Source: Poecilobothrus nobilitatus (Eukaryota > Arthropoda > Insecta > Diptera > Dolichopodidae). Taken from it: a stretch of 64,000 nucleotides of DNA. The stretch spans positions 126,077,911-126,141,910 of the forward strand of contig OX352773.1 in assembly GCA_947095535.1 (NCBI GenBank). Reading direction: 5' to 3'. The notes under the pieces are model-generated. The model saw nothing but the letters and a program-made list of their open reading frames with translations, was not told the origin of the DNA and made no database searches. Positions 27,951-60,115 of the stretch are shown here, in pieces (the stretch's first letter is position 1; every line of letters begins with the position of its first letter). Both the position numbers and the translations under genes were made by a program.

Positions 27951-27956
27951 AATGTG
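27951..27956. repeat. Polinton target-site duplication, left copy (aatgtg)
   Basis: aatgtg immediately precedes the left terminal AGTAGATAG and is repeated exactly after the right terminus at 44969-44974. Six-base duplications are the hallmark of Polinton integration by the DDE integrase. Confidence 0.95.
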
Positions 27957-28955
27957 AGTAGATAGAATCTGGCGATTCCAGCACAGTTTTGACAGCTGTC
28001 ATTTATTTTGACAGCTATAAAAAGAGGTTTCGCGTTAGTGGCGGTTAATTTTGAAATTTAAAAAAATTTGAATTTAAATTAGCGTTAGTGGCGCTTAATT
28101 TTGAAATTTAAAAAAATTTGAATTTAAATTCGCGTTAGTGGCGGTTAATTTTGAATTTAAAAAAATGTCAGTGTGGGGTATAATGGAATTGAATTTTAGT
28201 TTTGAAATGAATGCAGGTTGTTTTTTTTGCTGGTAGAGTTTTGTTGGCTAGAGTCTGGGTGCTAGAGGTTGGGTGGCTGAGGGTTGGGTGCTTAGGGACT
28301 AGGGGTCTGGGGGCCTGTAGCTGGTGGGGGGCTAGGTTCTGAGATATTGTCTAGATTGGAAACTGAGAGAAGTTAGGTTTGCCGATTCTAGTACAGTTGG
28401 GAGTATTATGAGATTGAATTTTTGTTTATGAAATGAGTTTACACACATAATAATAAAATATAATTTTTGCTTATTATTGAAAATGAAATTGTTGGGAATT
28501 GAGTAGCTTATAGTAGGTAGGTGTATTATTGTGGTTTCTTTTGTGATAAGAATATAAAATTTAAATTCAAATTTCTTCTTATTAAAATAATATGTTATAG
28601 TGGTTTTCAAATATAAAATTAGATAAGAAAATTTAATAAAATTTAAATTCAAATTTTTTCTTAGTAAAGTATGTTATAGTGGTTTTCAAATATAAAATTA
28701 GATAAGAAAATTTAATAAAATTTAAATTCAAATTTTTTCTTAGTACAATATGTTATAGTGGTTTTCAAATATAAAATTGGATAAGAAAATTTTGATTTGA
28801 AGAATAAAAGAAAAAGTCTAATTTGTAAAAAATTACGTCAGGGGATTCCATAAACGTTTGGCTGATAAAAGTTTAATGAAATAAAAAGTTCATAGATTCA
28901 TATAGAAAGTGAGTAAAGTAAAAAAAAATTTAAATTATTTAAATATGTTTGCATT
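27957..28955 (+). repeat. Polinton left terminal inverted repeat
   Basis: It is nearly identical to the reverse complement of 44105-44968 apart from indels. It contains the palindrome TGACAGCTGTCA at 27990-28001, three 50-bp units starting gcgttagtggcggtt (28031-28166), a G-rich block (28228-28345) and three roughly 80-bp units starting aaaatttaaattcaaa (28556-28790). The right copy has one fewer unit of both arrays and a shorter G-rich block. Confidence 0.92.
28228..28345 (+). repeat. G-rich block in the Polinton left TIR
   Basis: Repeated short G-runs (gggtgctagaggttgggtgg, then gagggttgggtgcttaggga, ctaggggtctgggggcctg and ctggtggggggctagg) stand out in otherwise AT-rich DNA. Spacing of the runs would allow G-quadruplexes. 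The right TIR has a shorter version on the other strand (44640-44720). Confidence 0.7.
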
Positions 28956-28994
28956 TAAAACTTTTGATAACAAAAATGTTTCAAGAATTAAAAT

Positions 28995-29016
28995 AGGATG
29001 AGTGCGGTTTTATAAC
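28995..29016 (-). promoter_or_regulatory. Polinton repeated intergenic motif, inverted copy upstream of polB
   Basis: aggatgagtgcggttttata is close to the reverse complement of accataaaaccacattcatc, which occurs four times downstream of polB (32859, 32975, 33169, 33273). Repetition only in intergenic DNA flanking the first two genes suggests a regulatory or packaging/replication site. The function is inferred. Confidence 0.4.
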
Positions 29017-29178
29017 CCCCGAATTATTACTCTTCCTCTTTATTTTACAGACATAAAACTTATTGTATTATGAAATATTTTGGTATATAAATTAAAAAAT
29101 AATGAAAAATTTGATCATTCTAAAAGAAGTATTTGATTTCAAATAGTGAACTATTTCTATAAATAACTATATAGTAAA

Positions 29179-32100
29179 ATGAAACGCAATTCAAACCAAA
29201 TTTCTGGAAGTGAAGAAAAATATTGCTCTTCTTGTAAAATCTCTGTTCCCATTAAAGGATGGATGTATCACCTAAGAACTCTAAAACATAGAAGAAATTC
29301 AGCAACTATAATTGAAGATGGTCTTAAGTGCATTAAAAGTACTTTTAATGAGAGAATAGAATCGTTTATATATGATAATGACGTAGAGGAATTACAATCA
29401 CCTAATGAGTTTTTTATTAAAGGAAAAGATAAAATAATTAAATTGTTGCAAACTGCATTGGAAAAACATAAAGCTCTAAAATATAATTTGGAATTATTCG
29501 CTGAGTATATTAAAATTTCCAAGAAGGATGGTGAAGATGAGGAATATGATGGTAATATGGATCTATCGGTGAAATCTTTCAATACTAGTATGAGAACTGT
29601 CAATCAAAGTAAGCAGCTTTCAGAGTTTTATGATGATATGGTTAATAATATTGTTAAAAAATGTGACGAGTTTCAAGAACGAGATAGCGGTTGGGCTTTA
29701 TTACGAATTTTACATGTAGAAATCAACATTAATCAGTACAAGCCTTTACGATGCTCACAATATGTACCATTACCGAAATTCATTCAGGACAAAAATGCTT
29801 GTATTAACATTAACAATTCAGATGAATATTGCTTTAAATGGAGTATAATATCAGCCCTTTATAAAGGAAATCAAAATTTACAAAGAACATCGATTTATAG
29901 AATACCTGATATTGAAAGTAGCACAATACATTTAAATGAAAATTTTGAAGAGTTTACTTTAGAATTTGGCAATTTGGAATTCCCACTTAAAGTAGCAGAC
30001 ATAGATTTATTTGAAGAATTAAATCCTACTATTAGTGTAAATGTTTTTGGAATTGAAGAAATTAGCTCACAAAAAGGGATTTTTTATGAAATAGTAGGAC
30101 CGTATTACTCAACTAAAGAAGAAAAAATTAAGCATATTAATGTTTTATTGGTTGAAAATGAAGAAAGAGCTCATTATGTTTGGATAAAAAATATATCAAG
30201 GCTGATTAGATCGCAAATAACACAACATGGTCATGGTTTGTACTTATGCAATACATGCTTACAATATTTTCACAACGAAGAGTCTTATCATATACATAAA
30301 AAAGAATGCTGTAAAATTGTTACGTTGATGCCTGCTGAGGAAAATAAATGGATAACATTTACAAAATATGAAAGAAAAATTGATGTACCTTTTACCCTTT
30401 ATGCTGATTTTGAATGCTTACTTCAAGACATTTATACATGTCATCCTGAAGAAACAAAATCAGCAACAACAGATATACAAGAGCATATTCCATGTGCATT
30501 TGCTTACAACATAAAATGTTCCTTCAATCACAATTGGGATTTATTTAGAATGTACACAGGTGAGAATTGTATTCATATTTTTATAGATAAGTTAATTGAA
30601 GATGTTATTGTTATTTCGCGTGAACACCTTCAAAAAGTGATACCAATGAAAAAGTTAACAAATTTAGAACAAAAACATCAGATAGAAAGTTAAATATGTC
30701 ATATTTGTGAATTAGATTTAGGTATAGATAGGGTTGCTGACCATTGCCATTTAACCGGCACATACCGTGGACCTGCTCATTATACATGTAATTTAAATTA
30801 TTCACACGCTCATTTCATTCCAGTTTTATTTCACAATTTTTCGGGATACGATTGCCATTTATTAATAAAAGCGCTATCAAATCACCCCGGTCAAATAAAG
30901 TTGATACCAATCAACAAAGAAAATTACATTTCTGTTTCAAAACATATAAATATTGATGAAGAAAATGTGATTAAAATACGATTTTTAGATTCTTTTAGAT
31001 TTATGGCTTCAAGTATTGATAATCTAGCCCGTAATTTATCGAATGATAATCTAATTAGCACTAGGAAAATATGTATTGATGATGAGCAATTTATGCTTTT
31101 ACGACGAAAAGGTGTATTTCCTTATGAGTTTTTAAATTCATGGGAAAAGCTTAATTTTGAAACATTACCTTCTCGGGAAAAATTTAATAACAAATTATCT
31201 GATTATACTTGTTCTGATGAAGATTATGAGCATGCTAAGAAAGTGTGGGAAAAATTTAACTGTAAAAATTTTAAAGACTAATTAGAAATTTATTTAAAAA
31301 CTGATGTATTCCTATTAACTGATATTTTTGAAAATTTCCGTAAGCTTTGCAAAAACATATATTCTTTAGATCCATGTCATTATTACACGGCGCCAGGCTT
31401 ATCTTGGGATGCCATGTTAAAATATACCAAAATTGAACTTGAACTATTTACGGATATTAACATGTATAATTTTATTAAAAAAGGAATTAGGGGGGGAATA
31501 ATACAATGCGCTTTGAGGCATTCAGTAGCGAATAATAAATATATGGAAAATTTTGACAGTTCCAAAACTTCTAAGTTTATTGTGTATTTAGATGTTGTTA
31601 ATCTATATGGTTGGGCTATGTCACAATTTTTACCTTTTTCTGATTTTCTATGGGTGGAAAATTTTGAAACAAATATTTTAGATATACCGGATGATTCTAA
31701 TATAGGTTATATTTTAGAAGTAGATTTAGAGTATCCCATTTCTAAGCATGACGAACATAAAGACTTACCATTTTGCTGTGAACATAAAATGAATCAATAT
31801 ATGAAGAATACCAAGTTGATTACTGATCTTGAAGATCACAATCATTATGTCATTCATTATCGAAATCTTAAACAATGTTTAGAGCACGGGTTAATTTTAA
31901 AAAAAATTCATAGAGTATTACAGTTTAGACAAACATGTTGGCTTAAAAGCTATATTGATTTAAATAATTCACATAGAATAAGAGCTGTAACACAATTTGC
32001 TAAAGACTTTTTTAAGCTATTAAATAATGCTGTTTTCGGGAAAACTATTGAGAATATTGATAAAAGAAAAGATGTTAAAATAGTGACAAGTTGGGAAAGT

Positions 32101-32820
32101 CGGGGAAGACATTTAGGTGCTAGAGCTTTGATTGCTAAAGCAAATTTCAATAGTATAGCCCATTTTACAGAAAATATGATTGCTGTTCAATTGGACAGAG
32201 TAAAAACGTTTTATAATAAACCTATATACGTCGGATTTTCAGTATTAGATGTTTCAAAATGGAAAATGTATAACTTCTTATATAATTATATGAAACCAAA
32301 ATATGGAGATAATGTTGAGCTAAATTATATGGATACAAATTCTTTTGTATTAACAATTGAAACAGATGATTTTTATAAAGATATTATACCTGATATAGAT
32401 CTAAATTATGATACCTCTGATTATAATGTAAATAATATTTACGGTATACCCTTGAAAAATAAAAAGGTTCTCGGTATGATGAAGGATGAATGTATTGGCA
32501 GTATAATAAGAGAATTTATAGGTTTAAGATCCAAAATGTATTCTATAGATATTATTAATAAAAATGAAATAAAAAAGGCAAAAGGTGTTAAGAAATATGT
32601 AGTTAAAAATCTAACTTTATCAAATTATAGAGATTGTTTATATAAAAGGAAAATATATGTAAATAAAATGTATATATTTAAAAGTAAGTTGCATACTTTA
32701 TACACACAATGTTTAAATAAAGTATCTTTAAGCTATTTTGATGATAAGAGATTTGTACATTCTAATGGTGTTAATACATTACCTTGGAATCATTATTCAA
32801 TTGGTACAGAATTATTGTAA
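29179..32820 (+). pseudogene. polB: Protein-primed family B DNA polymerase (POLB), two in-frame stops, altered motif C
   Basis: This is the Polinton replicase. One frame of 1,213 codons is interrupted by TAA at 30691-30693 and 31279-31281. The N-terminus has a C2H2-type finger (CSSC, then HLRTLKH). A second finger-like CNTC...H lies near residue 356. The exonuclease has DFE at 30406-30414, FHNFSGYD ending at 30852 and YLKTD at 31303. A CNLNY cysteine/histidine segment lies at 30740-30800. Motif A is YLDVVNLYG (Asp at 31591) and motif B is KLLNNAVFGKT (about 32014-32046). Motif C reads YMDTNS: the second catalytic Asp, normally YxDTDS, is Asn (32338-32340). The stops and the Asn make it inactive as read. 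The start ATG follows an ataaataact TATA-like patch at about 29160. Confidence 0.93.
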
Positions 32821-33048
32821 AATAAATTTAATGTAATGAAATAAAAATAAAATATTGTACCATAAAACCACATTCATCCTCCTATTTAAGCTTTAAAACA
32901 TTTTCTGCGAAATGTGAATTATATTGTTATTGTAAAATAAAATTTAATGTAATGAAATAAAAATAAAATATTGTACCATAAAACCGCATTCATTCTTTTA
33001 TTTAAGCTTTAAAACATTTTCTGCGAAATGTGAATTAGATTGTTAATG
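32812..33048 (+). repeat. Tandem duplication of about 116 bp after polB
   Basis: Two units share attattgtaaaataaa, accataaaaccacattcatc or its one-base variant, and cattttctgcgaaatgtgaa. The first unit contains the polB stop codon. A third partial copy lies at 33273-33335 (accgtaaaaccacattcatc, then tttaagctttaaaacatttt). Confidence 0.85.
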
Positions 33049-33390
33049 AATTTACTTTAAAAATTAAAAGTGTAAATTTGATATATGAATATTGTGATTA
33101 GAAAGGGAATCCTATAGTATTTTAGAGTATAGAGTATTTAAAACATAATAATTCTAGAAAATTTAGGTACCATTAAACCACATTCGTCCGGATTTAGAAA
33201 TTTAATTGTTACATGACGTCAGGCAATTTCATAATATTTAAAAAGCATATTAATGATAAATAATGAATTGAGTACCGTAAAACCACATTCATCCTCCTAT
33301 TTAAGCTTTAAAACATTTTCTGGGGAATTTATATCTGATTAATTAAAAGCAGTTTTTTAACAATCTTTTATTACCAGCATAAGGAAAAAT

Positions 33391-33430
33391 AGTATAAATA
33401 GGCTGTATATTTTAATTAATTATTCAGTTA
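33391..33430 (+). promoter_or_regulatory. Candidate RNA polymerase II core promoter of the small acidic-tail gene
   Basis: TATAAATA at 33393-33400 is followed about 31 bp later by attcagtt at 33422-33429, which matches the arthropod initiator TCAGT. The gene starts at 33484 after an A-run. The TATA-to-initiator spacing is the usual one for insect promoters. Confidence 0.55.
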
Positions 33431-33483
33431 TTACCTACACTAATTACTCTAATAAAGCATTAAAAAAAAAAAAAAAATAAAAA

Positions 33484-33865
33484 ATGAGTTTTTTAAATAA
33501 CTTAAATAAAAAATTCGAGTCGCGAAAATTCAAAAGTACAGTCACAGTTTCAACTATGCTGTATAAAAAATTATATAAAATAGAGAGACTGATGAAGATA
33601 AATACTAAATTCGGAGAAAGGGTTACAGCAGAATTGGGAGAATTTAAGATATTTCTTCCAATACGATTTAATGCCCTTACACAGGATGAAATTACAAAAT
33701 TGGATGATGGATCATATGGATTGGTAAATTATGGTCACAAAGGAAAATCCTTTAATTTAAAAATTTTTAAAAAAGATGAATGGACTGGTAGTATGGAGCA
33801 CAACAGATGACGATGGTGAAGATGATGAAGACGCTGATATTCTTGAAGAAAACCAGGCCATATAA
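33484..33865 (+). pseudogene. Small Polinton protein with acidic tail (possible ssDNA-binding protein), frameshifted
   Basis: The ORF 33484-33810 encodes 108 aa with strand-rich text (FGERVTAELGEFKIFLPIRF, then YGLVNYGHKGKSFNLKIF). At about 33795 the frame shifts by one base. In the shifted frame an acidic tail of about twenty residues (DDDGEDDEDAD region) runs to TAA at 33863-33865. A compact basic/beta domain with an acidic C-terminus just downstream of the polymerase suggests a single-strand DNA-binding or processivity role. I do not recognise a named family. The apparent stop at 33808 is therefore probably a lesion. Confidence 0.55.
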
Positions 33866-34176
33866 TAATTATGTAATCAATACAAAATAAATAAATAAAT
33901 AAATATTTTGATTTTTATGATAATTATATAGTTTTCTTTTATTTTATAAATTGTATCTTAATTTTCAGGGCGCACTTTTTATAGGTTTTATAGGTTTATT
34001 TTTTAATTTTTTATAGGTTTTTTTTTTTTGCAAATTAGCTGAAAGGGTGGAAAAAATCAAAGCTAAAAAAAAAAAAAATATGTTACAGTAAAACTGTTCA
34101 TTCATTTTTATTTAATCATTATTAGTACATATCACAATTAAATCATAAAAATCATAAAAATAAAATAATAAAATGT
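33866..34176. other. Intergenic between convergent Polinton genes
   Basis: It is AT-rich and contains three tataggttt units (33978-34022) and poly-T/poly-A runs, likely the 3' ends of the converging transcripts. There is no gene. Confidence 0.5.
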
Positions 34177-34647
34177 TTACAATAGTGATTTTAATAAATA
34201 AACATTTTCAAAAGCGCACATACCAACATGATTGAATGAGCATCTTTGAGCAGGGGTATTTTGTTGCCTTTTTAAAAATTTTAGGCTTGTGTAATCTTGT
34301 CTGTTTAAATCTACAACATTATTATAATGTTTCAAAATGTTTTGAATCCAAATTCTCTTTTCATCACCCTTTACGTAAATGCAAGTATTGGTATTTATAA
34401 ACAATTTTAAAAAATTCATCACATCACAAAAACTTGTTTTACCATCAGACCATTTAAATCCATGGTGATTTTTTGTTAATCATTTATTGATATATTTTGA
34501 TTGTGACTCAAGTACGTGATAACTGTATGGAGGTTTAATTATGAAATGTTGAATTTCATTACTTGAAGTTAATATTGCAATTTCTTTTAGAATAAATTTG
34601 TTACTATTATCTCGGAAGCCTTGAATATCAAGTATTACATATTCCAT
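34177..34647 (-). pseudogene. Small Polinton nuclease-like protein, one in-frame stop
   Basis: Read from ATG at 34645-34647, the frame gives 156 codons with one internal TGA at 34480-34482. The N-terminus VILDIQGFRDN followed by FILKEIAIL resembles the first strand pair of RNase H-fold exonucleases (acidic residue in LDIQG). Then come IIKPPYSY, a HHGFKWSDG segment, CIYVKGDEKRIWIQNIL and a C-terminal CSFNHVGMCAFENV Cys/His patch. I recall this type as a common small Polinton gene. The nuclease role is inferred from the fold resemblance only. It is the last gene of the leftward block. Confidence 0.55.
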
Positions 34648-34797
34648 TGCTTAGATGTCTATAAAACAAGTAAATTAAAAATGTTACTCCAAAACAGAGT
34701 CGTATATAAAATGTATAAAACGATTTTAAATGATTGATTTTGTCTATTCAGTGATTGTTGTTGTAATTTCATTAGAAAAGCTAATTGATTTGTAATT

Positions 34798-36000
34798 TTA
34801 ATTTATTTTATTAACATCCACGCTCAAAGGTTGAAATTCAACTAGTCGATCGTGTAACAAAAGACAGTAGGCTGTGGTACTTGCTGGAATGCTACTTGCA
34901 GTTTTAAGCCGTATTTTAACATCAATTGACCCCGTTTTTAAATTTTCATTTTGATAACGAGTGTCTATTACGAAAATTGTACTACTTTTCTTAAACTCTT
35001 CCCATGTTAATAAAGGTTCAGGTATAGAATAATTATAATAATTGCAACGAAAGTTAATGTATGCCTCGTAAGCTATTCCATAACGATGTGTTTCAAAATT
35101 TAAATTCATATCTTCATATGGATAAGCTTCTGAATTTAAGAAAACTTTTAAATCTTCTACATCCAAATGATCAAATTTCGATGGATCTTCTTTAAGTTTA
35201 TTTAACTTATTTGTTTATAGAGCGAAAATAATGAAACGCGGCTTTTCAAGTTGAGTTGTAGTTTTAACGTTCCAAATATGATGGTTAGTATTTGACGGTA
35301 ATGTTGGATATTCATATAAATCCCAATTTCTAAAAGCTAATATAATTTTAGCATTATTATCAATATTCTTGTACAGGTTTAATTTGAAGGAATCAGCTAA
35401 ATTGATATGTTGTACTCGCCATTGCACTTTAAGTAATTGAATTTTCGGTTTTTCATTAATATCAGAGCAAAGTAAAGAGTTATCATCAGATCTTGAACGT
35501 ATCAAAATTAATTCATGTTTTGCATTCGGTATAATGTTTTTATGATCTTCAGCAAATCCCAAGAGTCTTTTCAATGGAACACAATAGTTAAAAAATTGTG
35601 TTTTTGAATCAATTGTTGCTTTGGGAGACCAACATGCATTCATAAGAGCTTGACTCTCATTTTCATTTAGCGAAATAAAATTTTTTAAACATGTTGTTAT
35701 ACCAACATTTCGACAATGATCAATTTCCTTCCCATTTAATTCATAGCGTACTTCTTCGAATAGAAATGCCATTGCGTTATTAATTAAATTTGTTTTTGTT
35801 GCAAGACTTCCATCTTGTTTTGAAATAAAGCCTTCAATATAAAGAATACTGGTAGACGGTAAGATATTTAGATTTTGATTTTGTATTTGTATGCGAATAA
35901 TATCGCTTTTATTAAATGAATCTGTGAATGCTGAATATGTGTGCCAATGAGCACTTGTTATACTTTGATCAATGACAGGGCTATGAAATAAATTATCCAT
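34798..36000 (-). pseudogene. MCP: Polinton major capsid protein (double jelly-roll), one in-frame stop
   Basis: This is the main shell protein of the putative virion. The frame from ATG at 36000 runs 400 codons to the stop at 34798. One TAA at about 35215 falls between FIIFAL and TNKLNK, splitting the first 261 and the last 131 codons. Family landmarks in order are FTDSFNKSDIIRI, NNAMAFLFEEVRYELNG with DHCRNVGI, LLGFAEDHKNIIPNAKHE, QWRVQHINL, QLEKPRFIIFAL, then FDHLDVEDLKVFLNSEAYPY, and a C-terminal AYCLLLHDRLVEF. The single stop is one substitution away from a Gln codon. It follows the 59-aa ORF by three bases, so it is co-transcribed. Confidence 0.92.
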
Positions 36001-36003
36001 TTT

Positions 36004-36183
36004 TTAAAACGTTTTTAATTTAAGGCCAATTGATTTTAAAAATTGTTGTCTTTCTATTGTTAGAGTTCCTTTGTTTATTCTGTGAGATCTTATTCCTCTT
36101 AACGTTGACATGCTATTAAAATGATCCTTGACGTGTGCTAAATATTTATTGTGTTTCTGATAATTATTATCATATATTATCAT
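36004..36183 (-). CDS. 59-aa ORF between minor and major capsid genes
   Basis: Its ATG at 36181-36183 overlaps the TGA of the minor capsid gene (36180-36182), and it ends three bases before the major capsid ATG. The product is basic, with RGIRSHRINKG and a C-terminal QQFLKSIGLKLK. A short, basic ORF in this place with an FLxSLGL-type ending is, from memory, common in insect Polintons, which supports it as a real gene. Its function is unknown. A virion-assembly or DNA-associated role fits the context and charge but is a guess. Confidence 0.62.
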   Translation of the reverse strand: MIIYDNNYQKHNKYLAHVKDHFNSMSTLRGIRSHRINKGTLTIERQQFLKSIGLKLKTF

Positions 36184-36879
36184 TTTTCCTGTTTTTTCAA
36201 GTGCAAGCGCACTGTTATAGTTTCATCTCGAAAATTAATTAAATTACCGTTCTGGTCGAGTAATTTTATGTTTATCGATTTGATTTGATTGACAGCTACT
36301 GGTAAATAGATAAGATTTCCAGGAACTTCAATTATTTTATAGCCGGGGCCTATTAATTAAAAATTCATGTAAAATATGTACTCTCTGATCATTAATATAT
36401 GTTCCTTGAATAATGTTGCATTCAACTCGTATAATATTAATTTTGTTTATATCAACAGGAAGATCTGAAATATTCCACTTATTTGGTTTTAATCTTCTTT
36501 TACTAAAACCTAACAATCCACCAATAGTGTCTTCTCGTTCAAAATCAATCTCTTCATCGGAAAAAATTTCACAATTTAATGTATTATTGTTAGCTTTTAT
36601 ATAGAGTTTCCGTTTTTCAGTTTTTGTATTTGTAATTTCTAGTTTCTTCTTAAGAAAATCTTCGATATCTTCAATTTCATAGGAACCTGTTGGAAGAATG
36701 ATGCTTTTATCCCCAATAAGAAATCTATTATTTCCTTCATCTACATTCGGTATAGAATTGTATGTCTGAAAATCAACTAATGCACAAACATATTCCCCTT
36801 CTAAATCTATGGGTGGAAAATATTCTGCTGTTAGTACAGAAATTTTACCATTTAAGGTAAACGTTAATGGTTGCTCTTA
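36180..36879 (-). pseudogene. mCP: Polinton minor capsid (penton-like, single jelly-roll) protein, broken
   Basis: This caps the vertices of the putative capsid. Reading leftward from 36876: LTFTLNGKISVLTAEYFPP, YVCALVDFQTYNSIPNV, LPTGSYEIEDIEDFL, IGGLLGFSKRRL and RVECNIIQGTYIND, in one frame to a stop at 36337-36339. The tail (GPGYKIIEVPG, IYLPV, INFRDETITVRLHLKK) continues in another frame to TGA at 36180-36182, so a frameshift lies near 36355. An in-frame TAA at 36877-36879 precedes the open part. The text upstream (RFNNCLIG) looks like the true N-terminus but has no ATG. Confidence 0.82.
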
Positions 36880-36889
36880 ACCAATTAAA

Positions 36890-37196
36890 CAATTATTGAA
36901 ACGTATTATCTTTTATATAACCATTATCATAATTTATTATAAATTAAATTACCTACACATATATATACAATTTATGATGAAAATTCAATTTTAATTTCAA
37001 TAACCTTAAATTTCATTTAAAAATCATATGATTTTTAACAAGAAAATAAAAAACAAACCTTGAACTTAAAATTTGAATTGCATAATAATAAAAACTATGA
37101 TTCTATTCAATATCTCTATTGAAAGAAAACAAAAATAGCCTTGAATTTACTTTTTTGTCACGCTTAAAAAGAAAAAAAAAGTGATATATTTCTTAT
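36890..37196. other. Intergenic within the leftward Polinton block
   Basis: It is AT-rich, with no ORF on either strand. On the minus strand ggttatataaaagataatac (about 36905-36925) is a TATA-like site upstream of the minor capsid gene. Confidence 0.45.
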
Positions 37197-37613
37197 TCAT
37201 TTTTTATTTTGCTTATAAAAAATAGTATTAGATAAGAAAGTTAAACATAAATGACCACAATTGTATGTATTAAATTTTTGATATTTATAATAATTATATG
37301 AAAGCTTATTTCCTAAATATTTTACAATTTCATTTGGTGGTTTTAAATTTCCAAAGCTATCAAAATATTTTATATCATTTAAATTCTTATAATATGCTAC
37401 CCAATGAGTTCCATCTCCGATTGAGTTATCTAAATTGACGATTCCACATTCACATTTCCAAGGTTTAGTTTTAGGAAGATCGTCTCTCATAAAAACTCCA
37501 CGAAAATATTTTAAGTATTTGGTTCCAAAATTATTTAAATCAATATTGGTTAAAGCCCGTTTGGGTAGCAAACTTAGCGGTTTTTTGATGTCAGAAATAA
37601 TCCAAGTCCCAGT
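37197..37613 (-). CDS. PRO: Polinton adenain-like cysteine protease (PRO), no clear start codon
   Basis: This is a maturation protease of the adenain/Ulp1 fold. In the open frame 37613-37197: LPKRALTNIDL, FRGVFMRDDLP, CECGIVNLDNS, then GDGTHWVAYY (catalytic His), KYFDSFGNLKPP (acidic member) and TYNCGHLCLTFL (nucleophile Cys in the NCG). All three catalytic positions are present. No ATG lies in frame between the upstream TAA (37614-37616) and the first conserved residues; TTG at 37569-37571 is the first near-cognate codon. The start is lost, non-AUG, or supplied by frameshifting from the overlapping upstream gene. The domain itself is unbroken. Confidence 0.85.
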   Translation of the reverse strand, partial: TGTWIISDIKKPLSLLPKRALTNIDLNNFGTKYLKYFRGVFMRDDLPKTKPWKCECGIVNLDNSIGDGTHWVAYYKNLNDIKYFDSFGNLKPPNEIVKYLGNKLSYNYYKYQKFNTYNCGHLCLTFLSNTIFYKQNKK

Positions 37614-38393
37614 TTATATGGTTTTAAATGTAAACCCCTTCCTCTTAGAGCAATAGCTTCCATTGTTTTATTATGACGTTCACTTTCATTTAACTGCACC
37701 TTAGCATTTTTAGCATCAGTAACAGCTTTAGTTATACCAGCAGCACCACCTGCAAGAGCTCCGACAGCTGATAAACCTGCGAATATTGGAATTAATGGTA
37801 GAATGCCACCAGTTTTAGGAACAGAATTTAATTGATTTTCTATATTTGCTTATATTTCTAGCAGCTTTCAGCGCAATTTTGATAGCGTCATTTTGCTTAT
37901 TAGGTTTATACTCTTTAATAGCTATTCTAGCTTCTTGAATGACTCTTCTTAAGGGTTGCTTTTTCGGTGCTTTCTTTGCTTCCTTCTTGCAACCCATACC
38001 AAGTCTAATTTTTGTCTTCATTGCGTTTATAACAAGAAATCCGTTTGCTTTTTCACTTAAAGTTGAATCACGCGATTTAACTCTTTGCCAAGCTTTCTCA
38101 GCTAATATTTTATCAGCTATATGACGATCAGAAATATTACTATGTTTAGAATATGCAATATCGTGTTCACGACATGCATCATCTAATTGGTTTATTCCTT
38201 TATCCCCACGTTCTAGACGTTTTTTAAGTTTTGTTCCTGGTCCACAATAATTATATCCAGGTAGATGTGCTTCAAATGGTAATTTATTAATTATGGAATT
38301 TAATACACCACCTTTCTTTTTGATTTACAACTGATTGCATTTCTCTTGTAACTGATCATATTTAATCTTATATCGGTGACAGTTCAATATGGA
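37574..38393 (-). pseudogene. Phospholipase A2-domain Polinton protein with membrane/basic tail, broken
   Basis: The open frame 38324-37815 has GYNYCGPGTKLKKRL (calcium-binding loop YCGPG), DDACREHDIAYSKH (catalytic His-Asp pair) and SDRHIADKILAEKAW. This is the layout of the phospholipase A2-like domain used by parvovirus-type virions to leave endosomes. A lysine-rich stretch follows (GCKKEAKKAPKKQPLRR). After a frameshift near 37855 the tail reads IFAGLSAVGALAGGAAGITKA, a hydrophobic Gly/Ala segment, then LRGRGLHLKPYKLGLGLFL, to TAA at 37574. An in-frame TAA at 38325-38327 interrupts the N-terminus. The tail resembles adenovirus pVI/pX-type minor virion proteins in composition only. It is divergent from the ATPase gene, about 60 bp away. 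Confidence 0.78.
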
Positions 38394-38450
38394 TTGTTTT
38401 GATTAAGACATATAAATATAGTTTTATATGAAATTGATTTAGTTGCTAAA

Positions 38451-39057
38451 ATGAAGTTTATCAAAAAAGGTGAAACAATAAAGATTATGAATTTTGATGA
38501 GAAATGTAATATTATTAAAGAGTATAAGAAACACGGAGAAATACTACCAAACAGGATTAATTGTTGGACCATCTAATTGTGGTAAAACAAATGTCATGTT
38601 AAGCATGTTATTAGATCCAAAAGGTCTTAAATTTCAAAGTATATACAGTTATTCGAAATCATTACACCAGCCAAAGTATCAGTATTTTAAAAAAATTATA
38701 AAACGTATTAAAGGAATGGGATATAATGAATTTTCAAATAATTCAGATGTAGTTAAACCATCAGAATCCCGACGGCATCAAAACGTCGACAGTTTCTATT
38801 TATGTCAATCATATACTCGAATTCCTAAACATTTAATAAGAGATAATGCAAATTTTATAATTTTATTTAAGCAATATGATTTAAATTTAAAGCATATCTA
38901 TAATGATCATGTTAATGCAGATATGTCCTTTAAGCAATTTAAAGATATATGCACACATTGTTGGCGAAATAGCTATGGATTTTTACTTATTGATAAAGAT
39001 AGAGCTTTAAATAATGGTCGCTATAAAAGAAATTTTGAAAAATGTGTTCAATTATAA
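38451..39057 (+). pseudogene. ATP: Polinton FtsK/HerA-type packaging ATPase, frameshifted, Walker B region missing
   Basis: This is the motor that would pump DNA into capsids. The ATG at 38451 opens MKFIKKGETIKIMNFDEK. A one-base shift near 38550 moves to the frame of 38494-39057. Walker A is GPSNCGKT (about 38566-38589). Later conserved text is NVDSFYLCQSYTRIPKHLIR, DNANFIILFKQYDLNLKHIY and GFLLIDKD. Between VVKPSESR and RHQNVDSF, where family members carry the Walker B strand (hydrophobic run ending Asp-Asp), this copy jumps straight on. An in-frame deletion of roughly thirty codons near 38768 is the simplest reading. Predicted inactive. Confidence 0.82.
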
Positions 39058-39075
39058 ACATATATAATATACCGT

Positions 39076-39190
39076 TCACAACAACAACAGATCAGATCAA
39101 CAACAGCAGCATATCAGATCAGGAACAACAACAGATCAGATCAGACCAGTTTCGATTCAATACAGATCAGGTCAGATCAGTTGCAGTTCA
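39076..39190 (+). repeat. CAGATCAGATCA-type short repeats before the DUF8207-like gene
   Basis: cagatcagatcaacaacagc, atatcagatcagg, cagatcagatcagaccag and cagatcaggtcagatcag occur within 115 bp, after a tatataatatacc TATA-like site (39060-39073). They occupy the probable 5' leader. Several contain the TCAGA/TCAGT initiator-like core, so transcription may start at more than one point. Confidence 0.6.
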
Positions 39191-39204
39191 ATAGCAGTTC
39201 AATC

Positions 39205-40148
39205 ATGAATAAAACCTTTAATGAAAAAGTCTTAAAAGACATAATTAAAACGAGAAAAAATTTGCAAAGGAAATATAAAACATTAAAAACTGGAAAAATA
39301 GCAGAGGAGCAATATTTGGAGGAAACATTTAAGCCAATTGTAGAGCCAATTAAAAAATTAACTAATATTGTGAAAAAGCAGGAAGTGAAACCGGAAGATG
39401 AATCCAAAACTACTGATAATGATAAAATTAGTATGACATCATTCATGCAAAAACGGAAACACCAAAGAAAAAGAAATCAGATTTTGAAAGTTTTAAGACA
39501 TCAACACCTAACACTACTACATTTTCAACTTCTAAATTGACTGCCGATTCATCATCATCATCATCATCACCTTTATACAGCTATAATAAATCAGAAATTG
39601 ATAAGAGTTATGGACCATATCTTGACCTAAAATCGAACATAAGAAAATTAGGTAATTCAACGTTTAGTATTAATGAAAATAATCATAACATAATTATTAA
39701 TGGTGAGACCTTTGAGGGAACTGAAGGTTTGCATAATCTTATATTTAAAAAGAAACCAGTGAATTATACTGAAAATGATTTAAAACAGTATCAAAGGATT
39801 TTGGAAAAAACTAATGCTCATAGGAGAAATTATGATTCATTGGAACAAATTAAAGGAAATAAGGGTTATAAATATCAAAATATTATAAAACACCTGTATA
39901 AACATGAATATAATACGAGAACTAAAAAAGGAAATTCTTATTCTAATAAAAATTTATTAGCATTGCCACGCTCTTCTAATATGTTATATTCAAACCGCCC
40001 GATTCAATATACTTATTGGGATGACCCTAATGAATTAGTTGATAGATTGGAGCTTTTGATTGCATCAGAAATGTCTGGTAACAATAATCATCATAATGAA
40101 ATCAATTCCATTATTGAAGAACTCAGAGAAGCTAATATAATTGAGTAA
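39205..40148 (+). pseudogene. Conserved Polinton protein (DUF8207-like), one frameshift
   Basis: The ATG at 39205 opens a lysine-rich, probably coiled-coil N-terminus (RKNLQRKYKTLKTGK, IVEPIKKLTNIVKK). A frame change near 39450 leads into the frame ending at 40148. The conserved C-terminal part reads GPYLDLKSNIRKLGNS, GTEGLHNLIFKKKP and YWDDPNELVDRLELLIASE with GNNNHHNEINSIIEELREA. That signature is, from memory, common in insect Polintons (DUF8207). The function is unknown; because it follows the ATPase, a virion role is possible. A serine run (39541-39565) lies at the frame junction. Confidence 0.72.
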
Positions 40149-40275
40149 TAAATATTTTAAAGTAACACTTACATGATGACAATTGACAAATTTGGTCATA
40201 CTTGAGCTCAACCATATAAAAATAAACCCTTAAACAGCCATATAATAAGTTTTCCTTTAACTTCAGAAGGAAATT

Positions 40276-40662
40276 ATGATCTTCAAAATAAGCAATTCGC
40301 AAATGTTAGAACATCCAACAGATGTTGTAACAAAAAGTTATATTGATAATCAATTCGATATTCATGATGAAAGTATAACAAATCTTTTTATAGATTTTCA
40401 AAGAGAAAATGCTGACTGGGTAAATACACAACTTTCAGATGCAAATAAAACCATAAAACAATATACTGAAAATGAAATTAGCAAATTAGATGATAAATTA
40501 AAAACTTTTATTGAAGAAAAAATTGAAAGACATAATTCGTTTATCTGGAGCAGCATGGAAAAGGAAATTAAAAATGCTATGCATTTCGTAGATACGAATG
40601 CTGCAGAAATTCTTAAAAACTTTGAACTTCGAATAAAACTTTTGGAAACAAATAGTAAATAA
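40276..40662 (+). CDS. Unknown 128-aa coiled-coil protein of the Polinton
   Basis: This is an intact frame from ATG 40276. The middle and C-terminal parts are heptad-rich and charged (QYTENEISKLDDKLKTFIEEK, then IKNAMHFVDTNAAEILKNFE), suggesting a helical oligomer. A tataaaaataaaccc site (about 40215) and an initiator-like acttcag (40259) lie upstream. I do not recognise a family. A short trimeric or dimeric helical protein could be a fibre, scaffold or adaptor; that is a guess. Confidence 0.65.
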   Translation: MIFKISNSQMLEHPTDVVTKSYIDNQFDIHDESITNLFIDFQRENADWVNTQLSDANKTIKQYTENEISKLDDKLKTFIEEKIERHNSFIWSSMEKEIKNAMHFVDTNAAEILKNFELRIKLLETNSK

Positions 40663-40704
40663 ATTTGTAACAATCAGTCTGTACTAAAGATTTAGGCATT
40701 AAAC

Positions 40705-40995
40705 ATGGATATATCACGAATCGGATATAAATTGAATAATTTTCTAAATATATATGAAGATATTCTATTAGAAGAACATTATACTGAATTAAAAGATCAT
40801 TTTAATTTTTTGGTGCAGTTCAAAAATTCAGTGCAGTTAGAAACAAGAAATCATAGTATTCACTATACTATATGCCTATATGCGTCAGATTCATCTGATT
40901 CATACCCAGATACATGTCCATGTATGTCGGCTGAACGAATAATGATAAGAATTGTGAAATTAATGAAATTATATGAGAGAATTAAAAATAAATAA
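40705..40995 (+). CDS. Unknown 96-aa protein of the Polinton
   Basis: This is an intact frame starting 43 bp after the previous stop. It is mostly helical-looking, with SIHYTICLYASDSS, a CPCM pair of cysteines and a basic helix RIMIRIVKLMKLYERIKNK at the end. No family is recognised. Being open in an element with many broken genes makes it worth noting. It is followed by an A-run (41010-41024). Confidence 0.6.
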   Translation: MDISRIGYKLNNFLNIYEDILLEEHYTELKDHFNFLVQFKNSVQLETRNHSIHYTICLYASDSSDSYPDTCPCMSAERIMIRIVKLMKLYERIKNK

Positions 40996-41054
40996 AACTA
41001 TTTAAATTAAAAAAAAAAAAAAATAAGCATTATAATTATTGTTTTATATTTAAA

Positions 41055-41420
41055 ATGAGTCAGAGTGAGGTGGTTGATTTATTTGAATGGCTTAACATTT
41101 TGGATTCCTCTGAAGAGAGTGATGTAGAGAAGGAGGAGGAGGAAGTGAAAGACGATGGCCAAAAGCTGATGAAAAGAGTTCGTTTTGATTTAAAACCTCA
41201 AATCCATATATTGTACACATGGAACTCTGCGCATAAATTAGCTCGACAAAAATATTGGGAGATTATAGCTCTAGATCGAGTAAGATTTAATAAAAGAATT
41301 GAAAATACTGATAACCTTATCTCTAAAGTTTTAAATAAAAACCATCGTCAGCATATTTTTAATGACAGATTTTCTAATTACAACCTCATAACAGAAATAA
41401 AACTAGATCATTCATCATGA
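41055..41420 (+). CDS. PPP1R15/GADD34-like PP1 regulatory protein (eIF2alpha phosphatase recruiter)
   Basis: This is an intact 121-aa ORF. After an acidic stretch (residues 19-35) comes KRVRF (RVxF PP1-docking motif, residues 41-44). The PPP1R15 core pattern follows without a gap: Ile-His 50-51, Trp56, Ala59, Ala63-Arg64, Trp68-Glu69, Ala72, Asp74-Arg75, Arg77-Phe78 and Arg81-Ile82. In PPP1R15 proteins this segment binds the phosphatase PP1 and G-actin and directs dephosphorylation of eIF2alpha, restarting translation. The distance from the RVxF Phe to the second Trp (24 residues) equals that of human GADD34 as I remember it. Large DNA viruses carry genes of this type. Its stop overlaps the integrase ATG by four bases, so it belongs to the Polinton. 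Activity is inferred. Confidence 0.82.
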   Translation: MSQSEVVDLFEWLNILDSSEESDVEKEEEEVKDDGQKLMKRVRFDLKPQIHILYTWNSAHKLARQKYWEIIALDRVRFNKRIENTDNLISKVLNKNHRQHIFNDRFSNYNLITEIKLDHSS

Positions 41421-42337
41421 CTAAGAGAGAGGTTGTTGAAGAATTACATAAGCCAGCTCGAAAAAATTTTAAAAGGCGTAGAGTAATTATCAAAGGTTAT
41501 GATGATCTCTGGCAAGCAGATTTGGTAGAAATGGGTTTATATGCTAAAGAAAATAAAACATTTCGATTCTTACTAACCGTAATCGATACCTTTTCGAAAT
41601 ATGCCTGGGCTATTCCAATAAAAAATAAAACAGCTCAAAATGTTGCTCAGGCAATGCAATCAATTTTCACAAAATTTAACAGATATCCAAAAAACCTTCA
41701 GACTGATGATGGAAAAGAATTCTTCAACATAACTTTTAAAAATTTAATGAGAAATTATAAAATCAATCATTACTCAACTTTTAGCTCATTAAAAGCATCT
41801 ATTGTAGAGCGCTTTAATCGTACTTTAAAAGAAAAAATGTGGAAAGAATTCAGCTTTAATGGAAATTACAAATGGATAGGCATAATTGAAAGTTTAGTTC
41901 ATCAATATAATCACAAAAAACATCGCACAATTGGAAGATCTCCATCAGATATAAATGAAAAAAATGCTAATGAGCTGCTGTCAAGTGTTTATAATCATAT
42001 AAAAATTTCACCACCGGCTAAATTCAAAATTGGTGACTCAGTTCGGATAAGCAAGTTTAAACACGTTTTTGAAAAAGGTTATACACCCAATTGGACAACT
42101 GAAATATTTAAGATAAGGAAAGTGCAAATTACTAATCCCGTAACATATTTGCTAGAAGATTATCAACACAATCCAATAGAAGGAAGCTTTTATGAAGCAG
42201 AACTATTAAAAACAAAAATTAAAGATATTTACTTAATTGAAAAAATATTAAAATATAAGGATGATAAAGCTTTTGTTAAATGGCTTGGGTTTCCTTCAAG
42301 TCATAATTCATGGATAAATAAAACAGATTTAATTTAA
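41417..42337 (+). CDS. INT: Polinton DDE integrase with C-terminal chromodomain, intact
   Basis: This is a retroviral-type integrase that joins the element ends to target DNA and makes the 6-bp duplication. Its 306 aa are open from ATG 41417. The catalytic triad is Asp35 (WQADLVEM), Asp97 (LQTDDGKEF) and Glu131 (SIVERFNRTLKE). KPARKNFKRRRVIIKGYDD precedes the core; no HHCC zinc-binding domain is seen in this ORF. FKIGDSVRISKFKHVFEKGY is the usual C-terminal SH3-like segment. The last 45-50 residues (LIEKILKYKDDKAFVKWLGF, then SWINKTDLI) form a chromodomain. A near-identical damaged relative lies at 60116-60745. Its end overlaps the convergent secreted-protein gene by nine bases. Confidence 0.95.
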   Translation: MTKREVVEELHKPARKNFKRRRVIIKGYDDLWQADLVEMGLYAKENKTFRFLLTVIDTFSKYAWAIPIKNKTAQNVAQAMQSIFTKFNRYPKNLQTDDGKEFFNITFKNLMRNYKINHYSTFSSLKASIVERFNRTLKEKMWKEFSFNGNYKWIGIIESLVHQYNHKKHRTIGRSPSDINEKNANELLSSVYNHIKISPPAKFKIGDSVRISKFKHVFEKGYTPNWTTEIFKIRKVQITNPVTYLLEDYQHNPIEGSFYEAELLKTKIKDIYLIEKILKYKDDKAFVKWLGFPSSHNSWINKTDLI

Positions 42338-42965
42338 TATATAAAAAATATTTAATATATATGTTTGCTTAATATTACGTAAATCAATTAAAGTATTCTG
42401 TGATTTGTACAGAGTATCATAAATCGTATATTTTTCCAATTCTCCATTACTTAAAATTCTATTAGAAGCAATTTCCATATATTCCAAACATTCAATTTTT
42501 AAAGAGTGTTGCTTAAATTTTGCATCATATGAACAGCGAACTTTTATTTCTTCATTTTCAGCATATTCTAAACGAAAATGTCTATAAAAAACGTTTTCAC
42601 TTTCTATGATACCACCAATACTTCTTTCCTTTAAAAAAAGATCTTGTCTAAATGCTTCAATTGCTTGCTCTGCTGTTATATATTGTAGAATTGAATCAGC
42701 TTTCATAATTTGATCATCAGCAATAAGTTTTTCAGTTATACCATCAAATGTTATTGGAGTGGTTATTGTTGTTGTTGTTGGAATTTCAGATGAAAGTACA
42801 TGTTTTAACAATTTTACAGATAAATTTATTTGAATAGTTTCATTATTTGGAAGTATAACATTGAAATTTTGCGCTTCCATAAGCTGACTGATCTAGTCTT
42901 ATATTAGGAGTAGGTGCTGAATAGATTCCAATGGTTAATAAACTCAACAAATAAAATAATTTCAT
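42329..42965 (-). pseudogene. Predicted secreted protein of unknown function, one frameshift
   Basis: From ATG 42963-42965 the frame starts MKLFYLLSLLTIGIYSAPTP, a good signal peptide with a likely cut after YSA. One extra A near 42868 shifts into the frame that continues to 42329 (NFNVILPNNETIQINLSVKL, EQAIEAFRQDLFLKERSIGG, FYRHFRLEYAE, IYDTLYKS). The relative at 59477-60081 lacks the extra base, confirming that this is one gene. No domain is recognised. A Thr-rich patch lies near residue 67. The shared upstream segment gagtgaagtgt (minus strand, about 43020; 59410 in the relative) may be promoter or leader. Confidence 0.72.
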
Positions 42966-43251
42966 AATGCTTGTAAAAATTAATATGTAAATATAATAAT
43001 GATGATGCAGAATTAACACTTCACTCTACGAAAGTTAAATTTGAAATGTCTTTAAAATACTTTCATTTCTAGTAATATGTACAACCAAATAAATTTTTTC
43101 AACTTTTTTTTGTTGTTCTTTTACTTTCTAGAACTTTCTTTATCATGTAAAAACTTTACTTGACTTATGATAGTGCAAACGTATAAAAACAATGGTAAAT
43201 AGCGATCTCTTCCATCTGAAAAAGCTTCCATAAAATCTAAATACTCATCTT

Positions 43252-43851
43252 TTAGTTTTTCAAGTAATATTCTAAACTTGTTAAAATGTCACCAACTTTT
43301 GATTTATTATTTTTTTCATTATACATGTTTTCTATTGATGATATATATAAAATTCCGTCATCAATTCGTTTTCTTATCATTGACTTTTTTGACTCATTTT
43401 GATTCTCTTCATATTCATTAAATGTAGAAGACATTGACTCAATGTGTTGTTTGAGATTTTTACCGAAATCATTTGGTAATATGCTTAAAATATTTTTCCC
43501 TATCATCTCCCAATCTTCTTCCTCTGCAAATGGGCAATCAGCATCAAACTTCTTTGGTATTTGAGGCTTTTTTTTATTTTGTGGGTTTCTTATTGCTCCA
43601 ATAATACAAATATCTCCTCCATATACTTCAATTTTTATATGTTGCCAATCAAAATGCGGTAGCATTAACTTGCCAGTTGATGACTCACCGTTTCTAATTT
43701 TAAATACACAAACTCTTTGTCCCTGTTCTGGAGTTACATATATCTCCAAAAAATCATGAAATATTTTCCAATTAATTATTTGTATTAATTTCCATTTGTG
43801 TTTACAAATACAATATTTATACCCATGTGCAATTATATCACACCAAAACAT
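43252..43851 (-). CDS. Unknown 199-aa protein next to the Polinton right TIR
   Basis: This is an intact frame from ATG 43849-43851. The first half looks globular (YCICKHKWKLIQIINWKIF, QRVCVFKIRNGESS, IKIEVYGGDICIIG). The second half is charged and helical (FAEEEDWEMIGKNILSILP, then a Glu/Asn/Lys-rich stretch). I do not recognise it. It occupies the terminal accessory position, where Polintons often carry lineage-specific cargo. In the relative at 58.7-60.7 kb this place is taken by a different ORF in the opposite direction. Confidence 0.6.
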   Translation of the reverse strand: MFWCDIIAHGYKYCICKHKWKLIQIINWKIFHDFLEIYVTPEQGQRVCVFKIRNGESSTGKLMLPHFDWQHIKIEVYGGDICIIGAIRNPQNKKKPQIPKKFDADCPFAEEEDWEMIGKNILSILPNDFGKNLKQHIESMSSTFNEYEENQNESKKSMIRKRIDDGILYISSIENMYNEKNNKSKVGDILTSLEYYLKN

Positions 43852-44104
43852 TATGATGTCTATCCTTACTAATCTTGTTGTGTAATGATGATCTTAATCT
43901 TACAAATACCCCTTTTAACCAACAAATTTTTAACAGTCTTTAGAAAAATCACATTTTGTTTTTGCTCTTTTTCTTTTTATTTCTTCAATATTAAAATTTG
44001 AACATTTTTTATATCAACAACTATTCAATAACTCATCGGAATTTCCTGACGTCATTATTCATTTCTTCATATATTTCTTTTTTTTATTCAAAAGCTTTTT
44101 TTTA

Positions 44105-44968
44105 AATCCAAACATATTTCATAATTTAATTTTTTTTTTACTTTACTCACTTTCTATATGAATCTATGAACTTTTTATTTCATTAAACTTTTATCAGCCA
44201 AACGTTTACGGAATCCCCTGACGTAATTTTTTACAAATTAGACTTTTTCTTTTATTCTTCAAATCAAAATTTTCTTATCTAATTTTATATTTGAAAACCA
44301 CTATAACATATTTTACTAAGAAAAAATTTGAATTTAAATTTTATTAAATTTTCTTATCTAATTTTATATTTGAAAACCACTATAACATATTATTTTAATA
44401 AGAAGAAATTTGAATTTAAATTTTATATTCTTATCACAAAAGAAACCACAATAATACACCTACCTACTATAAGCTACTCAATTCCCAACAATTTCATTTT
44501 CAATAATAAGCAAAAATTATATTTTATTATTATGTGTGTAAACTCATTTCATAAACAAAAATTCAATCTCATAATACTCTCAACTGTACTAGAATCGGCA
44601 AACTAACTTCTCTCAGTTTCCAATCTAGACAATATCTCAGAACCTAGCCCCCCACCAACTACAGGCCCCCAGCCACCCAACCTCTAGCACCCAGACTCTA
44701 GCCAACAAAACTCTACCCGCAACAAAAAAAAACCTGCATTCATTTCAAAACTAAAATTCAATTCCATTATACCCCACACTGACATTTTTTTAAATTCAAA
44801 ATTAACCGCCACTAACGCGAATTTAAATTCAAATTTTTTTAAATTTCAAAATTAACCGCCACTAACGCGAAACCTCTATAGGCATAAATTATAACTACTT
44901 TTTTTTATAGCTGTCAAAATAAATGACAGCTGTCAAAACTGTGCTGGAATCGCCAGATTCTATCTACT
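44105..44968 (-). repeat. Polinton right terminal inverted repeat
   Basis: It is the reverse complement of the left TIR with few substitutions. It differs by indels: one fewer 80-bp unit, one fewer 50-bp unit, a shorter G-rich block, and an extra segment of about 24 bp near 44875-44905 (ggcataaattataactactt). It ends in ctatctact at 44968. The palindrome TGACAGCTGTCA is at 44924-44935. Confidence 0.92.
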
Positions 44969-44974
44969 AATGTG
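44969..44974. repeat. Polinton target-site duplication, right copy (aatgtg)
   Basis: This is an exact match to 27951-27956, directly after the terminal ctact of the right TIR. Confidence 0.95.
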
Positions 44975-59476: not shown

Positions 59477-60081
59477 ATGAAATTCTTTTATATAATAATA
59501 AGTTTATTAATTATTGGAATTTATTCAGCACCTACTCCAAATTTAAGATTAGATGAATTAGCTTATGGAAGTGCAAACTTCAATGTCATACTTCCAAGTA
59601 ATGAAACTATTCAAATAAATTTATTAGTGAAATTACTGAAGCATATACTTTCTTCAGAAATACCAGTAATAACAACAACAACAACAACACAGATATATGT
59701 AAGTGAAGAATCAATTGGAAAACTGTTTGCAGATGATTGAATTATGAAAGCTAATTCTGCCCCCCATATGTTACAACAGAACAAGCAAAAGAAGCATTTA
59801 AACATGAGCTTTTATTGAAGGAAAGAAATATTGGTGGTATAATTGAGAGTGATCAAATTTTTTATAGACATTTTCGATTAGAGTATGATGATAATAAAGA
59901 AATCAAAGTTCGCTGTTCATATGATTCAAAATTTAAACAACGTTCGGTAAAAATTTAATGTTTGGAATATATGAAGATTAATACTAACAGAATTTTAAGT
60001 AATGGAGTATTGGAAAGTTATACAATTTATGACACTGAATATAAATCTATTAAACAAACATATAATATGGATATATCTTAA
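59477..60081 (+). pseudogene. Second copy of the secreted-protein gene, broken
   Basis: It starts MKFFYIIISLLIIGIYSAPTP, a signal peptide matching that of 42965. Then come NFNVILPSNETIQINLLVKL and a Thr-rich patch, and an in-frame TGA at about 59738. After a frame change it reads EQAKEAFKHELLLKERNIGG, FYRHFRLEYDD, a TAA near 59957, and CLEYMKINTNRILSNG to TAA at 60079. The N-terminal frame is intact here but shifted in the main copy, and the middle is open in the main copy but broken here, so together they define the gene. Confidence 0.78.
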
Positions 60082-60115
60082 ATATTATTTTTAAATAAAA
60101 TTACATTTTTAAATT

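Follow-up and report, generated by a model that had tools for sequence, protein, structure and literature searches.

A PPP1R15-type gene beside the integrase of Polinton elements in the fly Poecilobothrus nobilitatus, a likely eIF2alpha phosphatase targeting subunit

The window analyzed here is a stretch of 64,000 nucleotides from the genome of Poecilobothrus nobilitatus (contig OX352773.1, positions 126,077,911 to 126,141,910 of the forward strand). It holds a transposable element with the following features, given in window positions:

27951..27956, target-site duplication AATGTG, left
27957..44968, Polinton element of 17,012 bp, with terminal inverted repeats (TIRs), target-site duplication and genes
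27957..28938, plus strand, left TIR, inner end approximate
29179..32820, plus strand, family B DNA polymerase frame with two in-frame stops (PF03175, E 8.4e-8, in the middle one of three pieces only)
34798..36000, minus strand, double jelly-roll major capsid frame with one in-frame stop (PF21738, E 5.8e-70 and 7.2e-41, in two pieces)
36337..36876, minus strand, putative minor capsid ORF, which we take to be such from background knowledge and position; no Pfam match
37197..37613, minus strand, putative adenain-like protease (Peptidase_C5, E 0.037, under the cut-off)
37815..38324, minus strand, phospholipase A2-like ORF (PF08398, E 5.7e-14)
38497..39057, plus strand, putative packaging ATPase (ATPase_2, E 0.0038, under the cut-off)
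39432..40148, plus strand, 238-aa ORF, no function assigned
40276..40662, plus strand, 128-aa ORF, no function assigned
40705..40995, plus strand, 96-aa ORF, no function assigned
41055..41420, plus strand, PPP1R15-like gene of 121 aa: N-terminal segment (1-15), acidic linker (16-39), PP1/actin/eIF2alpha core (40-106)
41417..42337, plus strand, integrase, rve core (PF00665, E 4.5e-14), its ATG overlapping the PPP1R15 stop
42329..42880, minus strand, 183-aa ORF, convergent with the integrase, with a relative in locus L041
43252..43851, minus strand, 199-aa ORF, with a relative in locus L041
44121..44968, minus strand, right TIR, inner end approximate
44969..44974, target-site duplication AATGTG, right

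We assign the element to the Polintons because it combines a polymerase B piece, an rve integrase, a double jelly-roll capsid and a phospholipase A2-like ORF with TIRs and a 6-bp duplication. The latter, AATGTG, lies outside the TIRs and is the perfect duplication that the initial annotation of this DNA had described as bounding the element. The TIRs, about 0.85-1 kb long, are identical at 838 of 864 ungapped columns, with 140 gap columns that include a misaligned repeat stretch. A chromodomain match in the integrase (PF00385, E 7.8e-4, 19.8 bits) stays under its cut-off of 25.1 bits. With two stops in the polymerase frame and one in the capsid frame, this copy looks defective despite its near-alike TIRs; the word "intact" in the initial annotation thus fits the PPP1R15 ORF and not the element that carries it. 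Since the stops are few and scattered over the element, an open ORF of 121 codons in one copy says little, and it is the relatives of the gene that carry weight. A second, fragmentary Polinton in the window comprises integrase pieces that share about 87% identity with the first, together with a relative of the 183-aa ORF at 65-67% identity (60119-60722, 59570-60087), and an ORF at 34177-34479 resembles, by eye, an approximately 200-aa ORF of the second lineage described below. Translations read by eye at 1008-3084, 10915-17648, 20279-24733 and 52545-54495 resemble remnants of Helitrons and of non-LTR retrotransposons. Neither Rfam families nor tRNAs turned up when the 64-kb window was scanned for them.

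The PPP1R15-like ORF (41055-41420, plus strand) is a frame of 121 aa without internal stop, as annotated, and shares the bases ATGA with the integrase through its stop and the integrase ATG, which bears out the reported four-base overlap. All the residues on which the assignment had been founded (RVRF at 41-44, W56, A63-R64, W68-E69, D74-R75, R77-F78 and R81-I82) are found where they had been placed; the register described as gapless is free of gaps against human PPP1R15A across residues 40-94, and beyond the residues first named R98 and F102 agree with the PPP1R15 core too. An HMM search for the R15 domain, proposed along with the initial annotation, found PF10488 (phosphatase-1 catalytic subunit binding region, Pfam) at E 2.7e-6 and 27.7 bits, above the curated cut-off of 26.1 bits. 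In the PDB the protein matched PPP1R15A (1e-4 and 0.0016, two chains), PPP1R15B (0.001) and DP71L (0.003), and a search up to E 1 gave no matches other than these three. A relaxed version of the core pattern occurs once in the 64-kb window vs. never in 40 simulated windows. The identity of the ORF as a PPP1R15 protein is, in our estimation, close to certain.

Some of our searches stayed silent. A single-sequence homologue search among 5.8 billion proteins found none, and the synonymous codon usage of the ORF carries no signal (log-odds -0.063); both would suit a chance ORF or a misread similarity, an explanation to which we give next to no credence. It is ruled out by the PF10488 match, the genome-wide copies, the dN/dS ratios, the profile matches and the residues invariant in 13/13 copies (see below). 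The codon-usage frame score of the ORF was reached by 0 of 2000 simulated sequences, in a weak test in which stops are penalized. A protein search started from an alignment brought up 43 PPP1R15 proteins; the 24 inspected are all vertebrate by look, with no insect relative among them. Viral contigs, scanned with alignments and a motif as well as with PPP1R15, the integrase and the capsid, yielded no confirmed relative, and a search of a collection of genome contigs gave none at all. Single-sequence structure prediction gave helices at 3-15 and 24-119 (mean pLDDT 77.8, pTM 0.35), the longer of which is probably an artefact.

We found that the gene is highly repeated in the host genome (944 Mb in 84 contigs), where candidate numbers stem from a loose first look and are not gene counts. 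With PF10488, all of the best 150 of 1569 candidates pass the cut-off. With the window protein, the best 150 of 2028 candidates all match at E <= 2e-30 and 57-100% identity; 20 of these are 96-100% identical, including 16 that span at least residues 2-120, and 15 of these 16 near-full-length matches at >=96% identity contain no stop. The PPP1R15 matches listed sit on several long contigs, and for this reason we reject contamination by a free virus. Most insects carry TTAGG repeats; a search for TTAGG x6 across this assembly gave 0 matches.

We compared the scored integrases of the same genome (best 129 of 11,614 candidates) with the best 150 of 2028 PPP1R15 candidates; both lists are the best rows of longer ones, and absences in them prove little. 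Among the matches listed, a PPP1R15 gene lies directly upstream, on the same strand, of 50 of the 129 integrases. Broken down by integrase identity, again among the matches listed, this holds for 14/14 at >=90%, 0/19 at 84-89%, 15/32 at 80-83% and 21/64 at 77-79%. The 19 integrases at 84-89% without a listed PPP1R15 gene upstream may reflect gene loss, another place of the gene, or matches beyond those listed. Counted in reverse among the same matches, 50 of the 150 PPP1R15 hits precede an integrase: 14/20 at >=96% identity, 0/6 at 72-79% and 36/124 at 57-68%. Measured from where the PPP1R15 alignment ends, the integrase ATG lies at -1 nt in 11 of the 50 pairs (the ATGA overlap), 31 nt in 20, 48 nt in 12, 7 nt in four, 58 nt in two and 2 nt in one, values that are inexact as intergenic lengths wherever the alignment stops early. 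In five of the six flanked loci (L054, L055, L057, L058 and L059) the integrase start is visible downstream, while none is present within about 320 bp downstream of PPP1R15 in L056; several of the integrases so located are damaged themselves. At L041 a window-type PPP1R15 gene faces a partial integrase in convergent orientation and shares a strand with relatives of the 183- and 199-aa ORFs; the adjoining L053 contains none of the query genes. Placement next to the integrase is thus standard within the family of the window element and frequent in other families, without being general.

As a separate observation, 18 integrase copies among the matches listed have identical scores of 548.1 bits, at 78% identity, and are spread over C1, C2 and C8, which suggests very recent transposition. 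By manual reading of the matches listed, each of the 18 is directly preceded by a PPP1R15 hit. Relatives of the integrase in metagenomes are up to 79% identical (120 of 5698 listed).

A second form of PPP1R15, of about 74 aa, occurs in another Polinton-like lineage and scores higher with PF10488 (45.6 and 44.5 bits in two copies); one copy matched PPP1R15B in the PDB at 6.2e-9, better than the window protein. We read 52 loci with this form or a third one, 48 of them distinct, L021-L024 being dropped as overlapping L006, L001, L019 and L002. They comprise the best-ranked loci, loci in which long frames are open and others taken from across the list, and are not a random sample. In 45 of the 48 (not L030, L035 and L042) a same-strand ORF of about 200 aa, such as L032:4413-5024, stands directly upstream of PPP1R15; it has no Pfam match. 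An ATPase-like ORF is found nearby, likewise in 45 of the 48 (not L029, L030 and L035), and the ATPase of this lineage matches Pox_A32 at 2.5e-6. The other ORFs scanned gave no useful Pfam match, and those that we label capsid-like are presumed to be so from background knowledge and position. Integrase-like DNA occurs near L019/L023 (one place), L030 and L038. Judged by the genes read, this lineage (e.g., L006, L021-L023 and L025) appears to be Polinton-like. An ATG-started frame of >=72 aa without a stop in the core match is present in 27 of the 48 loci by manual count. L002-L005, within the 48, form a tandem array with a broken third PPP1R15 form; together with L024 they are near-identical tandem units (G000:C1:97.41-97.44 Mb). 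In L024 the third form has second-lineage genes on one side and window-type capsid genes on the other, and beside the latter lies a distant relative (26% identity) of the approximately 200-aa companion ORF (L024:7532-7864).

We aligned 13 hand-chosen copies from both lineages, nine of the window type and four of the second form. PF10488 is recognized at E <= 0.1 in 13/13, and V42, F44, W56, R64, W68, R77, F78, R81, I82, R98 and F102 are invariant in all of them. As a profile, the alignment matches PPP1R15B (1.1e-9), PPP1R15A (4.8e-9) and DP71L (7e-6) in the PDB, the last being the viral protein found there, which a single sequence reaches at only 0.003-0.004. Profile-profile comparison with 14 PPP1R15 sequences, vertebrate by look, gave 98.3% and E 1.4e-14 over 72 columns. 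Residue numbers of PPP1R15A equal window numbers plus 514, an offset set on the printed alignment by Trp582, Arg587, Arg591, Phe592, Arg594 and Arg595 as named in the part of PMC8500838 used here. In that part Phe592, Arg595 and Arg612 are described as G-actin contacts and Trp582 as lying in the PP1 pocket, while Arg587, Arg591 and Arg594 are assigned to eIF2alpha. On this basis the actin-contact equivalents F78, R81 and R98 are retained in 13/13 copies. F102 aligns with the Phe that opens the segment F696-Q700 of PPP1R15B, for which PMC4394352 proposes an actin-binding helix, and the nearly invariant I89 and L93 align with Leu57 and Leu61 of DP71L, which are important for its effect on CHOP according to an excerpt of PMC5346070.

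The positions assigned to eIF2alpha are less uniform in this reading of PMC8500838: Arg591 is retained in 13/13 copies, Arg587 is Arg in 4/13 (the four second-form copies) and Leu in 9/13, and Arg594 is Arg in 3/13. The window protein has L73 and K80 at the latter two positions, and this replacement of two of three eIF2alpha-contact arginines counts against full eIF2alpha selectivity of the window type. Such a pattern, with the RVxF anchors and actin contacts kept in 13/13 copies, would fit a PP1-targeting subunit of PPP1R15 descent that was re-aimed at another phosphoprotein of the element or host and kept PP1 and actin docking but not eIF2alpha selectivity. We consider this unlikely, although it is the rival to be taken most seriously, for Arg591, which packs against eIF2alpha, is invariant, and the second-form copies keep Arg587, one of them aligning with the full eIF2alpha-binding motif published and quoted in PMC5346070. 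A further point against the rival is that the N-terminal segment and acidic linker resemble the eIF2-recruiting region of PPP1R15B, as far as that region is covered by the passages used of PMC7615683. The window copy itself agrees with the published motif at 9 of 10 specified positions and fails the strict pattern at K66, which replaces Gly; this counts against eIF2alpha targeting. We regard eIF2alpha-directed phosphatase targeting by the Polinton protein as likely from its sequence.

Selection was assessed by the Nei-Gojobori method on the window copy and L055-L060, six copies of which five are distinct (L055 and L060 are nearly alike). The window copy gave dN/dS of 0.10-0.17 against these six divergent copies (pS 0.64-0.71, pN 0.19-0.22; Fisher p 1.6e-9 to 1.1e-13), and 11 other divergent pairs gave 0.18-0.40. 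These ratios are rough, for the window pairs approach saturation at synonymous sites and the same sequences recur from pair to pair. Against the close copy L054 the ratio is 0.44. Against L041 pS is 0.75 and pN 0.23, with dS not computable; a separate alignment of this pair shows 30, 17 and 49 differences at the three codon positions among 106 codons (position 3 vs. 2, Fisher 3e-6). Comparisons with second-form copies gave 0.17-0.41 where computable, while the ratios among second-form copies scatter between 0.05 and 2.2, as these copies differ at few sites. By region, pN against the deep copies is 0.14-0.21 in residues 1-15 (15 codons only), 0.14-0.18 in the core and 0.29-0.44 in the linker 16-39; for the integrase, comparison of three pairs gave pN of 0.09-0.11. 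We read the window-type protein as two apparently maintained modules joined by an acidic linker.

These ratios also bear on whether the gene does anything for its carrier. A host PPP1R15 fragment might have been picked up as a mere passenger and have multiplied along with the transposon at no benefit to it. The many broken copies, seen in the 21 of 48 second- and third-form loci without a started frame of >=72 aa through the core, fit this idea, as do the in-frame stops in the window element. Yet, the purifying selection between divergent copies, the repeated place beside the integrase and the stop-free state of 15/16 near-full-length matches at >=96% identity (in the best 150 of 2028) speak against it; we hold it to be very improbable and reject it, since dN/dS lies far under 1, a value that only gene conversion from a host gene under constraint might reconcile with a passenger. 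Equally improbable in our view is a reverse gene flow, in which Polinton copies of PPP1R15 now serve the host and are preserved by host selection. It draws on the numerous PPP1R15 matches and on the fact that the host's own PPP1R15 was not recognized in the 48 loci read of the best 150 PF10488 matches, among the other 102 of which it may be. A further genome search for it gave one hit among the best 150 of 1428 candidates, at a PF10488 place already listed. However, the conserved copies still adjoin the integrase or other element genes and occupy no one fixed locus. Since the host PPP1R15 was not recognized, host capture of the Polinton gene, once or several times, can be put forward as a possibility only. 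The claim of the initial annotation that a Polinton carries a PPP1R15-type gene is strongly supported by the many copies, by at least two element lineages and by purifying selection between divergent copies, and PPP1R15 is, as judged by sequence, very likely a maintained gene of these Polintons.

We therefore favor, with good though not full confidence, the reading that a genuine PPP1R15 protein is kept by the Polintons of this genome as a working accessory gene and acts through PP1, actin and eIF2alpha. According to the parts consulted of PMC8500838 and PMC4394352, the PPP1R15 core binds PP1 via RVxF and G-actin via a helix, and the complex dephosphorylates eIF2alpha-P. In the Polinton protein, the RVxF stretch (41-44) and W68 would dock host PP1, and the helix with F78, R81 and R98 would bind G-actin. 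Both dockings together would direct PP1 to phosphorylated eIF2alpha, its presumed substrate, so that translation could continue at the time when element replication or particle production may trigger the integrated stress response. The conserved N-terminal segment and acidic linker may recruit eIF2, cf. the H1 helix of PPP1R15B, which the passages used of PMC7615683 describe as needed for substrate binding and conserved in Drosophila and viral homologues; the same passages report that replacing the acidic ED motif of PPP1R15B did not abolish eIF2alpha co-precipitation. The window segment has Phe10 and Trp12, followed by the acidic linker, and PPP1R15A repeats insert Phe and Trp into eIF2gamma (excerpt of PMC10998612). 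We infer that the Polinton segment resembles the eIF2-recruiting parts of PPP1R15 in kind, while its aromatic spacing differs from that of the FLKAWVY motif. The gene sits just ahead of the integrase, and in the window's family the stop of the one overlaps the start of the other, which suggests that it is co-expressed with the integration function.

Mammalian PPP1R15 proteins exceed 600 aa and are animal eIF2alpha phosphatase targeting subunits. With PPP1R15A (GADD34) and PPP1R15B (CReP) the Polinton proteins have in common the RVxF, the central Trp, the actin-contact Phe/Arg/Arg and a C-terminal hydrophobic residue in gapless register; in contrast, they are only 74-121 aa long, have an N-terminal segment of their own and, in the window type, lack Arg587 and Arg594. 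A few large DNA viruses are known to encode PPP1R15 homologues. Two of these proteins, DP71L of African swine fever virus and ICP34.5 of herpesvirus, likewise represent a pared-down PPP1R15 core in a DNA virus, but the carrier here is an integrating Polinton. With Polintons/Mavericks and adintoviruses the window element shares the 6-bp duplication, long TIRs, polymerase B, rve integrase and double jelly-roll capsid. Most intact vertebrate Mavericks have accessory regions on the flanks of their core, according to PMC8097293, which also states that Polinton particles have not been observed. Within the open-licence PMC literature we found no report of a PPP1R15 gene in Polintons, Mavericks or adintoviruses, which agrees, for that literature, with the initial annotation. 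PPP1R15 is known as a kind of viral gene; the Polinton carrier, the breadth of occurrence and the architecture are new to us. We know of no eIF2alpha-phosphatase targeting subunit from a transposable element, and the present one would, if our reading is true, be the first.

The most economical reading would be that the protein reverses eIF2alpha phosphorylation during an infectious phase, and such a phase of this Polinton lineage, proposed at the outset, seems plausible. Somewhat more tentatively than its role as an accessory gene, we propose that PPP1R15 forms a dedicated, conserved anti-shut-off module of Polintons in this lineage of animals, one that is present in at least two element lineages, evolves under purifying selection and, in the lineage of the window element, is often coupled to the integrase. 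If this is true, the elements would regularly face the integrated stress response, like a replicating virus. The question whether Polintons are transposons or viruses has so far rested largely on capsid genes, for want of observed particles (PMC8097293). A conserved PPP1R15 gene, best known in animals and viruses for reversing the phosphorylation of eIF2alpha, would be an independent, biochemically testable sign that Polintons meet the cellular stress response, and would extend viral PPP1R15 mimicry to elements that integrate, for which this single genome yields well over a hundred matches.
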